A stretch of DNA of 57,234 nucleotides from an uncultured Bacteroidota bacterium. GTDB taxonomy: Bacteria > Bacteroidota > Bacteroidia > 2-12-FULL-35-15. The notes beneath the pieces were generated by a model. That model was not told where the DNA came from, ran no database searches, and was given only the letters and a program-made list of their open reading frames with translations. Location: positions 1 through 57,234 of the forward strand of contig CAIWDF010000304.1 of NCBI GenBank assembly GCA_903911435.1. Direction: 5' to 3'. Below are positions 12,304 through 57,234 of this stretch, piece by piece. A program made the translations under genes and the position numbers. The number at the start of each line of letters is the position of its first letter. Position 1 is the stretch's first letter.

Positions 12304-13266
12304 TTATACTCTTTCGATAACGAAACTCAACGTGATGCTGCTCTGACTGGTTACGTTTAAATATTTTTTAGCTGACGTATAGCCCATTTCAGAAGCTTTG
12401 AAAGTGAGTGCAGTTGTATTGTCAATCACCTTGCCAGTTGCAGGAGTGATGACTACATCCATTCCATCAGCAAAACCAACCACTATAGTGCCATCACCCG
12501 AAACCGAAATTTTATATTTCGTGTCGGGACCGGCAGTGTTGTCGAATACATTCTGTGTAGTCATGGGGTTAATGTCGTTTTCTATTCGCGAGTCGGCTTC
12601 CTTGAATGCAGCATTGAGTATCGCCTGATTGAAGTACACATCACCAGCCGATTCATCGCCAAGAAACTCGCGAGCAATGGTAAGCAGATTGTAGGTTAAT
12701 TGTTTGCAAAGCGCAGGTTTGGTAGTTGCCAAATCTCTTTTTTCGGCAGCCACACCGCCCATTGCAGCCTTTTGGAAATTTCTGTTTTCAACATAAGTTT
12801 TGTACACCACAGTATAATCGGCAACGAAAGCTGCTGTAAAATCGGCCGCATGCAAGGCGAGCACATCTAGATAACGTTTCCCTTTGGTCTCCAAGGTAGG
12901 GAGGTCAGCTTCGGTATACTCGGTGATGCCCAGCGGATAAAACTCTTGATACACCATCATGTTAGCACTGTACTGGTACGCAATGAGGTTTTCGTTTTTG
13001 CTGATTAGTTTGCACAAAGCATCACGGCTTTCATTCATAGCCACTGTTTTTCCTTCTTGCAGAGCAAGGTTTAAACTTTCGGAAGTGATGTCGCCAAAAT
13101 AATTGGTAAACGCAGTAGTTACATCTGTTAAGATAACGGTAAAAATTCCACCGGGATTATTGGCATTCAAACGCGCAATGTGATCTTCGGCAAAATCTTT
13201 TAATCGTTCGCGACTGATTTTCGTACTTAAGAAAAGTATCGAAAAGTATTTTATTAATTGAATCAT
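12304..13266 (-). CDS. hypothetical protein
   Basis: I do not recognise this 320-residue protein. It has no convincing signal peptide. Residues 1-230 look all-helical and rich in Ala/Leu, including SRERLKDFAEDHIARLN near the start. The last 90 residues are Thr/Gly/Val-rich and strand-like (KISVSGDGTIVVGFADGMDVVITP), like an immunoglobulin- or fibronectin-type add-on. It is a single gene; upstream lies almost 900 bp of hairpins and a 42-bp array. A similar setting (hypothetical gene, array, LuxR gene) recurs at 52.8-54.8 kb. Confidence 0.65.
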   Translation of the reverse strand: MIQLIKYFSILFLSTKISRERLKDFAEDHIARLNANNPGGIFTVILTDVTTAFTNYFGDITSESLNLALQEGKTVAMNESRDALCKLISKNENLIAYQYSANMMVYQEFYPLGITEYTEADLPTLETKGKRYLDVLALHAADFTAAFVADYTVVYKTYVENRNFQKAAMGGVAAEKRDLATTKPALCKQLTYNLLTIAREFLGDESAGDVYFNQAILNAAFKEADSRIENDINPMTTQNVFDNTAGPDTKYKISVSGDGTIVVGFADGMDVVITPATGKVIDNTTALTFKASEMGYTSAKKYLNVTSQSSITLSFVIERV

Positions 13267-55004: not shown

Positions 55005-56105
55005 ATGAAGTATTCTGCTAAACAAATAGAACATAAGGGCGAGAAGCGCATAGCTGTTTATTTTGCTAATGATGCTGCATTGATAGCTCGGTTTAAGAAG
55101 TTGGATGGTGCGAGATGGAGTGCTTCGCTGAAGTGTTGGCATGTGGGGGATACGGAGGAGAATAGGGAGAGATTTGGAATAGGGAATAGCGAACAGGTAA
55201 TAGGGAATAGTGAAAAAAGGGAGGAGGGAAGGAGCTTGTATGAAGGTTTGCCGGATGGTCATAAACAAGCGGTGGAGGTTTATGTGGATTTGCTGAGGTT
55301 GGAAAATTATAGTGAGAAAACCATTACTACTTATCGGAATTGGTTTGTTATATTTTTGAAATGTTTTCCGAATGATAAACCGAGCACGATAACTAAGGAG
55401 GAAATAATGAAAATGCTGGTGAGGTTTCGTAACAGCGATAAATGGAGTGCTGCTTCGCAAAATTCGCTCATTAGTTCAATAAAATATTTTTATGAAAAGG
55501 TGTTGAAACGGAAACGGGAAATATTTGATTTGCCAAGAGCAGAAAAACCATTTAGGTTGCCTACTGTTTTTTCGCAATCGGAAGTGGCGGCAATAATAAA
55601 TGCATGTGACAATGTAAAGCATAAAACTATTTTATGTTTGGCTTATGCAGGGGGTTTGCGGATTAGCGAGATTGCTAATTTGAAAATTGCTGATGTGGAT
55701 AGTAAACGGATGGTTATTACTTTGCGGCAGGCAAAAGGCAAGAAGGACAGGCAGGTTATGCTTAGTGAAACTTTATTGGAAATGCTGAGAAAATATATAC
55801 TGGCACAAAAAGAGAATAAACCTAAATTATGGCTGTTTGAAGGATATGGGCATACGCAATATAGTACAAGAAGCATTGGTAAAATAATGGATGAAGCAAA
55901 GAAAAAAGCAGGAATTACAAAGAGAGGAAATATACATGGATTGCGCCACTCGTTTGCGACCCATTTGCTGGAAGGGGGCACAGATTTGATGGTGATAAAA
56001 GAATTATTAGGACATAGCAGTTTGCAGACAACAAGTATTTATACTCATGTGAGCAAAAAAACTATCAGCAAAGTACAAAGCCCTTTGGATAAATTGGGGC
56101 TTTAA
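55005..56105 (+). CDS. tyrosine recombinase/integrase (XerC/D-like)
   Basis: Site-specific recombinase of 366 residues. The N-terminal 55 residues form a small domain (KRIAVYFANDAALIARFKKLDGARWSASLKCWHV), then a low-complexity linker (about 58-75), a SAM-like core-binding domain (YVDLLRLENYSEKTITTYRNWFVIFLK) and the catalytic domain. Catalytic residues are present: Arg in GGLRISEI, Lys in AKGKKDRQ, HGLRHSFATH, LLGHSSLQTT and the Tyr in SIYTHV. It lacks the extra segment of integron IntI. It marks the accessory end of the window. Confidence 0.9.
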   Translation: MKYSAKQIEHKGEKRIAVYFANDAALIARFKKLDGARWSASLKCWHVGDTEENRERFGIGNSEQVIGNSEKREEGRSLYEGLPDGHKQAVEVYVDLLRLENYSEKTITTYRNWFVIFLKCFPNDKPSTITKEEIMKMLVRFRNSDKWSAASQNSLISSIKYFYEKVLKRKREIFDLPRAEKPFRLPTVFSQSEVAAIINACDNVKHKTILCLAYAGGLRISEIANLKIADVDSKRMVITLRQAKGKKDRQVMLSETLLEMLRKYILAQKENKPKLWLFEGYGHTQYSTRSIGKIMDEAKKKAGITKRGNIHGLRHSFATHLLEGGTDLMVIKELLGHSSLQTTSIYTHVSKKTISKVQSPLDKLGL

Positions 56106-56106
56106 T

Positions 56107-56141
56107 AAAGTGCGTTAATCTGTAAACAAAAGTGCGTTAAT
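56107..56141 (+). repeat. direct repeat pair just after the integrase gene
   Basis: AAAGTGCGTTAAT occurs at 56107-56119 and 56129-56141, 22 bp apart and starting 2 nt after the integrase stop codon. A recombinase binding or core site is possible. Confidence 0.5.
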
Positions 56142-56196
56142 TTTTTTGGGGAATTGATATTGAATATTTTAGTAATATTGCAAGTGCATATATTAA

Positions 56197-56214
56197 TATG
56201 TTATCGGCAAGTGT
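56197..56214 (+). repeat. left inverted repeat of the two-gene module
   Basis: TATGTTATCGGC-AA-GTGT. It matches the reverse complement of 57075-57092 at 16 of 18 positions. Confidence 0.6.
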
Positions 56215-56288
56215 AAGACCGCACGTAACGAACGGGGTAGCTGAAAACCGAATAGAGTAAGCGCAGAAACAAAAACAAAATTATCATT

Positions 56289-56645
56289 ATGGAAAACATT
56301 CAAAAGAAATGGTATCAAAAAACAGGATGGATAATTGCTTTAAGCATCTTATTCTTTCCACTCGGACTTTATTTACTTTGGAAAAATAAGTATATGTCTA
56401 AACCTCTTAAATGGACTATCTTCGCAGGGTGGTTAGCGTTTTTTGGTTACGCTGCATCACAAACAGACTTTAGTAATATTGAAAGAGGTAGTACACATTC
56501 AGGCAAGATGTGTTGTTGCAGATTTAAAGACAACTCTGTTTTAAGGACTAATGATAATACTTATATTACTGAATGGACTGATGAATCTACCTGTAGAACA
56601 ATTGGCGGAGAAATACAATCAAAAGAAAAAGGAGAATGTTATTAA
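56289..56645 (+). CDS. small membrane protein with a Cys-rich tail
   Basis: Protein of 118 residues with two predicted helices (about 12-32 and 42-58; FPLGLYLLWKNKYMSKPLKWTI between them). A C-terminal soluble part of about 55 residues carries four or five cysteines (CCCRFKDN, CRTIGGE, GECY), which could bind metal or form disulfides. The family is not recognised. It starts the inverted-repeat-bracketed module 22 nt before the zinc-ribbon gene. Confidence 0.65.
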   Translation: MENIQKKWYQKTGWIIALSILFFPLGLYLLWKNKYMSKPLKWTIFAGWLAFFGYAASQTDFSNIERGSTHSGKMCCCRFKDNSVLRTNDNTYITEWTDESTCRTIGGEIQSKEKGECY

Positions 56646-56667
56646 TTAATTAAACAAAGTATAAACT

Positions 56668-57054
56668 ATGTATTGTAAAAATTGCGGTAAAGAAGTTAAT
56701 GAGAAAGCTGTTGCTTGCATTAGCTGCGGAGTTCCACCTCTATTAGAAAAAAAATTCTGTCAAGAATGCGGTGTGTCAACAAATACTAATCAAGTTATCT
56801 GTGTAAAATGTGGAGTATCATTGACGACCTCAAAAACAGGTGGACTCTTATCTACTACAGGAAAGTTAGATGGTTTTTATTGCAGCACTGACGACAAAAT
56901 CATAATGGGAGTTTGTGGCGGACTTGGACACAAGTACGGACTTTCTCCTTGGATTATGCGTCTTGTATTTCTATGTGGAACGGGAGCTATAATTGCAATT
57001 CCTGTTTACTTTGTGCTTGGGACAAAAGAAAAAATCCCTACTAAAAATTTATAG
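56668..57054 (+). CDS. zinc-ribbon and PspC domain protein
   Basis: Protein of 128 residues with three CxxC zinc-ribbon knuckles (CKNCG, CISCG, CQECG/CVKCG) in residues 1-50. A PspC domain follows (about 70-120; DKIIMGVCGGLGHKYGLSPWIMRLVF plus one transmembrane helix). Zinc-ribbon-PspC fusions are common in bacteria and are linked to membrane stress, though this one is untested. It is the second gene of the module. Confidence 0.85.
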   Translation: MYCKNCGKEVNEKAVACISCGVPPLLEKKFCQECGVSTNTNQVICVKCGVSLTTSKTGGLLSTTGKLDGFYCSTDDKIIMGVCGGLGHKYGLSPWIMRLVFLCGTGAIIAIPVYFVLGTKEKIPTKNL

Positions 57055-57074
57055 ACACGACCCGACAGAAACGA

Positions 57075-57092
57075 ACACCAGCCGATAACATA
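57075..57092 (-). repeat. right inverted repeat of the two-gene module
   Basis: ACAC-CA-GCCGATAACATA, inverted relative to 56197-56214. A small palindrome GTTGCACAAC lies just outside it (57100-57109). Confidence 0.6.
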
Positions 57093-57234
57093 GGTAGCCG
57101 TTGCACAACCCTCTTTTTAAAACAAAAATAAAACAGAAAACGGAAAAACCGACCTCAATAGATGCGTTTTAAGAGAGGATGGGATTTTGGGGATGGAATG
57201 TAGTCTGCTAAATTGCCATCGCTATAAAGCGAAA

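Follow-up and report, generated by a model that had tools for sequence, protein, structure and literature searches.

A probable integron-like system, found mainly in Bacteroidia, with a Xer-like integrase and a gene cassette at an attI-like site

The right-hand end of a 57,234-nucleotide contig from an uncultured Bacteroidota bacterium (the whole stretch is called the window here) is best explained as the integrase end of an integron-like system, in which a Xer-like integrase is followed by one cassette in an attI-like site. We give this reading a probability of about 0.8. The type of integron system to which it belongs is found mainly in Bacteroidia. Judged on sequence features, this system does without the IntI hallmark but has the other integron features that were tested; it is likely to work in an integron-like manner, but we do not claim that it is an integron by definition. 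Directly visible are cassette ends that match, junctions at attI, palindromic sites and ORFs in a common orientation, as well as the adjacency of the integrase and, in a relative, another cassette between the same flanks. The features of the window are as follows.

55005..56105, + strand: tyrosine recombinase, presumed cassette integrase; 366 aa, PF00589 at E 2.4e-44, without the IntI-specific insertion; predicted model mc702164ac30b, pLDDT 84
55005..55184, + strand: N-terminal extra domain of the recombinase, residues 1-60; predicted beta-beta-alpha-beta-beta-alpha, model mabc12f480767, pLDDT 88
56106..56202, + strand: putative attI-like region, with the cassette junction G|TT at 56200-56202
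56200..56208, + strand: 5' core of the cassette, R'-like (GTTATCGGC); fits GTTRNNNNNMA of relatives
56231..56263, + strand: leader RNA element resembling Rfam DUF805b (RF02914); 34.7 bits, just below the gathering threshold of 35.6, E 1.5e-7
56289..56645, + strand: cassette ORF 1; 118 aa, Cys-containing, apparently a membrane protein (by eye)
56668..57054, + strand: cassette ORF 2; 128 aa, double zinc ribbon PF12773 and PspC PF04024
57081..57089, + strand: 3' core of the cassette, R''-like (GCCGATAAC); exact partner of 56200-56208 over 9 nt
57090..57234, + strand: conserved right-hand segment after R''; second attC half (L'/R') not seen, the contig ending inside the segment

The cassette extends from 56200 to 57089, holds two genes and starts 94 nt past the recombinase stop; neither Pfam nor NCBIfam matched the product of the first gene at E 0.1. 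The original prediction had described an 18-bp inverted repeat matching at 16 of 18 positions, which encloses a Cys-rich membrane gene and a zinc-ribbon/PspC gene downstream of a XerC/D-like integrase. All these elements were recovered. The arms lie at 56197-56214 and 57075-57092 (18 nt, 16/18 match, 89% complementary), with a spacing of 860 nt and a perfect 12-nt core (TATGTTATCGGC / GCCGATAACATA), both ORFs are found inside them, and the upstream gene is the tyrosine recombinase. With its end at 57234, the contig (G000:C304) continues for 142 nt beyond the repeat, and a complete attC is invisible in the window, where a single cassette displays R' and R'' only and the right end is without an L'/R' half. 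The remark that standard attC sites are lacking is therefore correct for the visible part of the contig, but it does not extend to the rest of the genome, where complete attC-like hairpins occur on contigs C30 and C130.

According to its sequence, the recombinase is not an IntI; it is of the Xer/XerA kind with an extra N-terminal domain. It scored 199.9 bits against the IntI model TIGR02249, under the cut-off of 265, and 207.2 bits against the XerA model NF040815, under the cut-off of 220. Residues R219, K244, H311, R314, H337 and Y346, which we take to be the catalytic ones, are invariant across 30 aligned recombinase sequences. Compared with Vibrio cholerae IntI4 (2a3v), the protein has 23 residues where 2a3v has 63. 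In one alignment, the interval of the IntI insertion measured 86 residues in 13/13 IntI, 44-47 in 35/35 family members (the window protein included) and 44-46 in 14/14 other recombinases that we labelled Xer-like; the insertion of roughly 40 residues is thus absent from all 35 family members. A maximum-likelihood tree split the 13 IntI from the other 60 sequences with a support of 94, and only this split was used, the family forming no clean clade and 15 other recombinases falling inside its common ancestor (support 49). The predicted model matched the XerA-like 4a8e (Z 24.0, rmsd 8.6, 258 aligned), XerA 5hxy (Z 21.3, rmsd 15.0, 253 aligned) and IntI4 2a3v (Z 20.4, rmsd 3.4, 259 aligned). Xer/XerA proteins (NF040815, 4a8e, 5hxy) are therefore closest to the family in sequence and fold and have a catalytic interval of the same length, whereas the family differs from them by its N-terminal domain and adjoining cassettes, and the window protein remains under the NF040815 cut-off. 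Xer acts on dif and, to our knowledge, has no cassette array.

The comparison with classical integrons is twofold. The order is alike: the integrase comes first, then an attI-like site, then an array in which short co-oriented ORFs alternate with palindromic sites and the cassette ends match. In contrast, the insertion is present in 13/13 IntI, and the family is devoid of it, groups apart and carries an extra N-terminal domain. The array lies 3' of the integrase in the family, whereas among ten IntI loci more sites were found on the 5' flank in six and on the 3' flank in four. Since the IntI loci vary in this way and archaeal attI sites have been reported downstream of intI in the cited part of PMC9668308, the 3' position of the array is not new by itself. 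The passages cited from PMC9668308 and PMC8138268 describe the IntI insertion as necessary for integron recombination, and its absence in the family therefore needs another solution. PMC8138268 gives the insertion as not fully conserved in its integron-like subgroup, so that sequences lacking it may already have been noticed earlier.

This solution might involve the N-terminal domain. At least 68 extra N-terminal residues are present in 35/35 family members. In a Foldseek search with the domain, the top two rows were chains of 4o66 (SMARCAL1 HARP) at E 0.35 and 0.45, the best of them with a weak probability of 0.51 and a TM of 0.41; hmmsearch returned 4o66 at E 0.14, behind a designed protein. 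Among 24 family members, Pfam recognised HARP in three (best E 0.0007) and DUF5710 in 11, and HARP was matched in 4/30 full-length members. VIA-align gave many unrelated folds (best Z 4.7), with 4o66 not in 50 rows. The possible link to the HARP domain of SMARCAL1 (PF07443, 4o66), drawn from the Foldseek, hmmsearch and Pfam matches, is weak: HARP takes the top Foldseek rows and is matched by Pfam in 3/24 members, but the scores are low, and 11/24 members match DUF5710. SMARCAL1 is an annealing helicase, not a recombinase, and HARP fused to other SNF2 proteins gives annealing-helicase activity, as stated in the part of PMC4035279 cited here; a role of the N-terminal domain with folded strands is therefore attractive, though only as an idea. 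The domain also occurs outside integrases; a recombinase lies within 1.5 kb at 29/30 domain loci, L237 being the exception. Some genomes have two or more neighbouring copies of the domain (G140, G188, G207, G373).

The genes of this integrase family are accompanied by attC-like arrays, which lie mostly downstream. At the 30 best integrase loci the contig ends within 3 kb downstream in 19 cases and upstream in four, as expected if repeats follow the integrase gene. Twenty loci in well-assembled genomes (19 genomes, some of other classes), chosen among the domain hits of the phylum sample for contiguous assembly before arrays were sought, gave 87 attC-like sites downstream (up to 18.4 kb, one stretch being shorter) versus 9 upstream (19.8 kb); L257 was without a downstream site, and L249 and L262 had one each. 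Hairpins of about 100 nt were found in G027 (L094), and in Flavobacterium enshiense DK69 (L107) a 9.2-kb stretch contains 11 candidate sites between short ORFs, most of these sites being of the form ...TAACAGCGGTTTT...CCGGCGGGACGTTA... Several sites were also present in Algibacter onchidii, Seonamhaeicola aphaedonensis, Winogradskyella ursingii and a Rufibacter. In the stretches covered, attC-like sites were absent at L105, L128 and L131, and single at L117 and L132. L105 holds the closest integrase in a named genome among the matches listed (58-60%), and no repeat or site was seen there in 10 kb downstream. The scan of named genomes took the best 80 of at least 592 stretches and gives no frequencies.

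As the sites are palindromes, their counts are near symmetric on both strands, and tags and ORFs were therefore used to orient the arrays. Across 36 arrays, with 154 sites in all, neighbouring cassette ends matched at 6/6 nt in 69/119 pairs; the five loci with 0 or 1 site (L105, L117, L128, L131, L132; 5/18 loci scanned) were excluded from this test. The same match was found in 15/621 non-neighbours of the same array, in 75/11,411 pairs across arrays and in 3/154 comparisons of the two halves of one site. The 50/119 neighbouring pairs that fail correspond to missed or false sites, or to decayed cassettes. Ten classical IntI loci of the phylum, used as a positive control, gave 23/46 neighbours versus 3/358 non-neighbours. 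The method therefore sees known integrons, and the new arrays equally well. Folding of 8 chosen attC bottom strands against shuffles gave z values from -8.3 to -1.5, half of them only weakly better (4/8, z -2.6 to -1.5), a result that is not independent because the sites were found by complementarity. A nearly identical site sequence (AACAATGGCTATAAGTAATTGCTTG...) recurs in Algibacter, Winogradskyella, a Sphingobacteriales MAG and Algoriphagus, and nearly equal attC-like sequences stand in different orders at L143, L122, L112 and L115, which suggests that cassettes have been exchanged horizontally between orders.

Altogether, 69 confirmed cassettes in 25 arrays had a median length of 771 bp, and the longest ORF was co-oriented with the array in 65 of them, with a median start 52 nt from GTT. 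The cassette starts followed GTTRNNNNNMA in 67/69 cases (a pattern derived from the same set) and the textbook GTTRRRY in 5/69; the start in the window, GTTATCGGCAA, fits the former. The IntI control loci keep GTTRRRY only loosely, with T as fifth base in 12/27. Since the IntI loci of the phylum also break this consensus, the clear difference is the 11th base, which is A in 70/70 starts of the family versus 5/27 at IntI loci, where T prevails.

The first cassette is often fixed close to the integrase. Thirty-seven loci were inspected, of which 36 had a recognisable integrase. In 32/36 loci an exact 9-nt tag located a cassette start after the integrase and before an early site (a count without a shuffled control), and the tag-confirmed junction was within 130 nt of the integrase end in 17/36. 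Cassette starts near the integrase are often preceded by sequence like GCATATAAACAA. Several Flavobacteriaceae have an attC-like first confirmed start at a long distance from the integrase gene, probably as the result of missed earlier sites. Position, tags and flank homology lead us to regard the site next to the integrase as attI-like.

How far the family extends was estimated in two samples, whose class and phylum names we deduce from named relatives. Within Bacteroidia, the profile of the N-terminal domain was found in 134/296 genomes at E <= 1e-6, and classical IntI above the cut-off in one. In the whole-phylum sample the domain occurred in 54/296 genomes at E <= 1e-4, of which 22 belong to other classes, and IntI in 85/296, of which 84 belong to other classes; the family is therefore not confined to Bacteroidia. 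Integrase relatives were found at E <= 1e-40 in 52/99 genomes, a count that includes ordinary Xer-like proteins, and the genome of the window itself gave no IntI match at E <= 1e-65. The family also resides on plasmids. The plasmid of Chryseobacterium sp. SNU WT5 (L372) has an attI-like junction 107 nt past the gene, and 2/6 neighbouring pairs match at 6/6; in Rufibacter tibetensis and Pontibacter kalidii the integrase is on plasmids typed mobilizable. The other plasmid records gave no matched pairs (L373, L375) or one left boundary only (L374). In the L372 array, the same palindromic site of about 140 nt starts at 13183, 15278, 17659 and 20728, and an IS110 transposase and a group II intron gene lie between copies of the site. 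In the literature, the cited section on IntegronFinder 2.0 names one complete integron in Bacteroidetes, that of Salinibacter ruber (PMC9024848), and Bacteroidota are listed among the phyla with integrons in reviews, according to the part of PMC8618304 used here.

The arrays could alternatively be ordinary cassettes served by a classical IntI located elsewhere or lost (CALIN), the adjoining recombinase being unrelated. The attC-like sites are indeed classical in layout, and attC can be recombined by a foreign integrase, as reported in the cited portion of PMC9668308. Moreover, in the related genome G004 no integrase was found at E <= 1e-40 despite the presence of cassettes and an attI-like region, and several genomes outside the class (e.g. 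G099, G103, G383) have both IntI and the N-terminal domain. Nevertheless, we consider this explanation unlikely: a classical IntI is over the cut-off in 1/296 Bacteroidia genomes, the sites lie beside the family on the downstream side, a cassette start comes directly after the integrase in nearly half of the loci, and the constant A at the 11th base sets these cassettes apart from those at IntI loci.

In the integron-like reading that we prefer, the inverted repeat would be the core-site pair of an integron-type cassette, with R' at the 5' end and R'' at the 3' end, both derived from the same original attC. By analogy with classical integrons, the bottom strand of attC in the circular cassette would fold into a hairpin. 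The integrase would bind the R and L boxes of this hairpin, its N-terminal domain perhaps aiding in recognition or stabilisation of the folded strand, and a single strand exchange would then join the cassette to attI between G and TT. The captured gene would be read in the direction of the integrase. From this analogy we infer the recombination, the single-strand substrate and the role of the N-terminal domain.

The genome of the window contains further modules with the same type of repeat, which had been proposed as a check, and they are found on other contigs. Right ends of this kind are also present on C130, C254, C30 and C5. C5, C306 and C271 repeat the cassette start together with its leader, and on C5 an attI-like upstream sequence like that of the window accompanies it; the repeat is therefore not unique to its place. 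In 13 oriented loci of G000 (the genome of the window) and G004 there were 10 right ends, of which eight have an exact 8-nt left partner within 6 kb, for a chance expectation of about 0.09 per right end by our own arithmetic. The partners are 0.4 to 3.5 kb away, C254 and C5 being without one. The tags differ between modules, yet they are equal at both ends of most modules. An integron cassette holds R' at its 5' end and R'' at its 3' end, both from one attC, so that modules with equal tags at their two ends bear the signature of integron cassettes. C30 and C130 carry tag-matched cassettes, the one on C130 spanning an assembly gap; both contigs also have complete palindromic attC-like sites, about 121 nt long, whose tags match one after another.

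Several of these modules end in the right-hand segment, which is matched 2 to 7 times per genome in six members of the same genus (G000, G004, G005, G012, G014, G027). It opens like an attC, with R'' and then a possible L'', and most inspected copies directly follow a TAAC core, with G012:C498 as an exception. The L'-R' pattern gave 17 hits in the genome of the window, right ends included, and 17 control hits, and visual inspection of 140 to 790 nt after five right ends of G004 showed no second attC half. Read in reverse, the segment has TGC about 13 nt before GTT, which over this short stretch is somewhat attI-like. The segment could mark where an array ends, or be a second attachment site in inverted orientation. 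It is about 150 nt long, has an inverted repeat inside, and comes after the last cassette at many loci (L020-L023, L193-L197) of the six related genomes. Cassette starts were also noticed without a nearby integrase (L023 10441-10610, L024 36-227, L025 9652-9952); these three loci share an upstream stretch (ATATATAAGGTGTGTTTTTGGGGGG or close) with 88% and 79% identity over 61 and 85 nt.

In both G000 and G004, modules that share this right-hand segment are scattered over several loci, which would also fit a small transposon or MITE-like element, of which the inverted repeat would be the terminal repeat and the two ORFs the passenger genes, with a transposase acting in trans. This possibility appears still more remote than a distant IntI. 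The ends of a transposon would be constant, whereas here the repeated part is the tag only, which varies from module to module and is equal at both ends in 8/10; moreover, the left contexts include attI-like and attC sites, and the module in the window encodes no transposase.

The site was also compared with relatives, another check that had been suggested. On contig C36 of G004, a left homology to window positions 56059-56205 (147 nt, 92%) takes in the final 47 nt of the integrase gene, crosses the attI-like region and stops 6 nt inside the cassette core; a right homology covers window positions 57074-57234 (161 nt, 96%). Between both flanks, G004 encloses another module of about 1.7 kb. The zinc-ribbon/PspC gene is matched at E <= 1e-12 in 2/99 genomes, its own and G028 (a 56-residue match), and the two genes are thus not present at the same site in all relatives. 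This comparison supports the view, already put forward in the original prediction, that the module is a cassette which the adjoining integrase would move.

Taken alone, the repeat is not beyond chance; the recurrence of the matched tags is. Indeed, the window has 86 overlapping 18-mer inverted pairs of such quality (>=16/18, within about 900 nt, hairpins included), against 2, 1 and 3 pairs in three mononucleotide shuffles. An inverted pair of this kind is thus no rarity in the window, but this last explanation, a chance pair around two ordinary chromosomal genes, is very improbable in view of the recurrent matched tags, the lack of a match to the PspC gene in 97/99 genomes at E <= 1e-12 and, in direct contradiction to it, the two G004 flanks whose homology breaks at the cassette ends.

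Beyond the window, we propose, with slightly more confidence than doubt, that the integron-like system is a second integron machinery of Bacteroidia and part of the phylum. A Xer-like integrase would have been recruited independently of IntI, and the folded attC would be read by the HARP-like N-terminal domain in place of the IntI insertion. This machinery would be present in nearly half of the Bacteroidia genomes, fill the apparent absence of integrons there, and draw on a cassette pool shared across orders and found also on plasmids. We found no description of such integrons among the open-access papers listed, and an account in preprints or subscription papers may exist. If the proposal is true, the integron gap of Bacteroidia is a detection gap, a large cassette system being overlooked by tools that require the IntI domain. 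Other classes of Bacteroidota commonly have classical IntI. Cassette capture would then work without the IntI insertion described as essential, the reading of a folded single strand by an integrase could be tested with a second enzyme, and a large reservoir of cassette genes, some of them on plasmids, would be waiting to be read.

Finally, the leader of the cassette contains the DUF805b-like RNA listed above. The DUF805b motif was present in 47/59 genomes searched, and above the gathering threshold in 31/59. As a constant cassette leader it was rejected: an exact far tag was found at 1/30 loci, and shifted control anchors gave 1, 0, 0 and 1. By eye, the motif follows a cassette-like start at L297 and L310, and it is mostly elsewhere among the 30 loci. 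We therefore keep this RNA as a feature of the window cassette, not as a hallmark. DUF805b is common outside cassettes too in related genomes, and a candidate cis-regulatory RNA of the DUF805 type (RF03081) lies in the cassette leader at L022 1849-1918.
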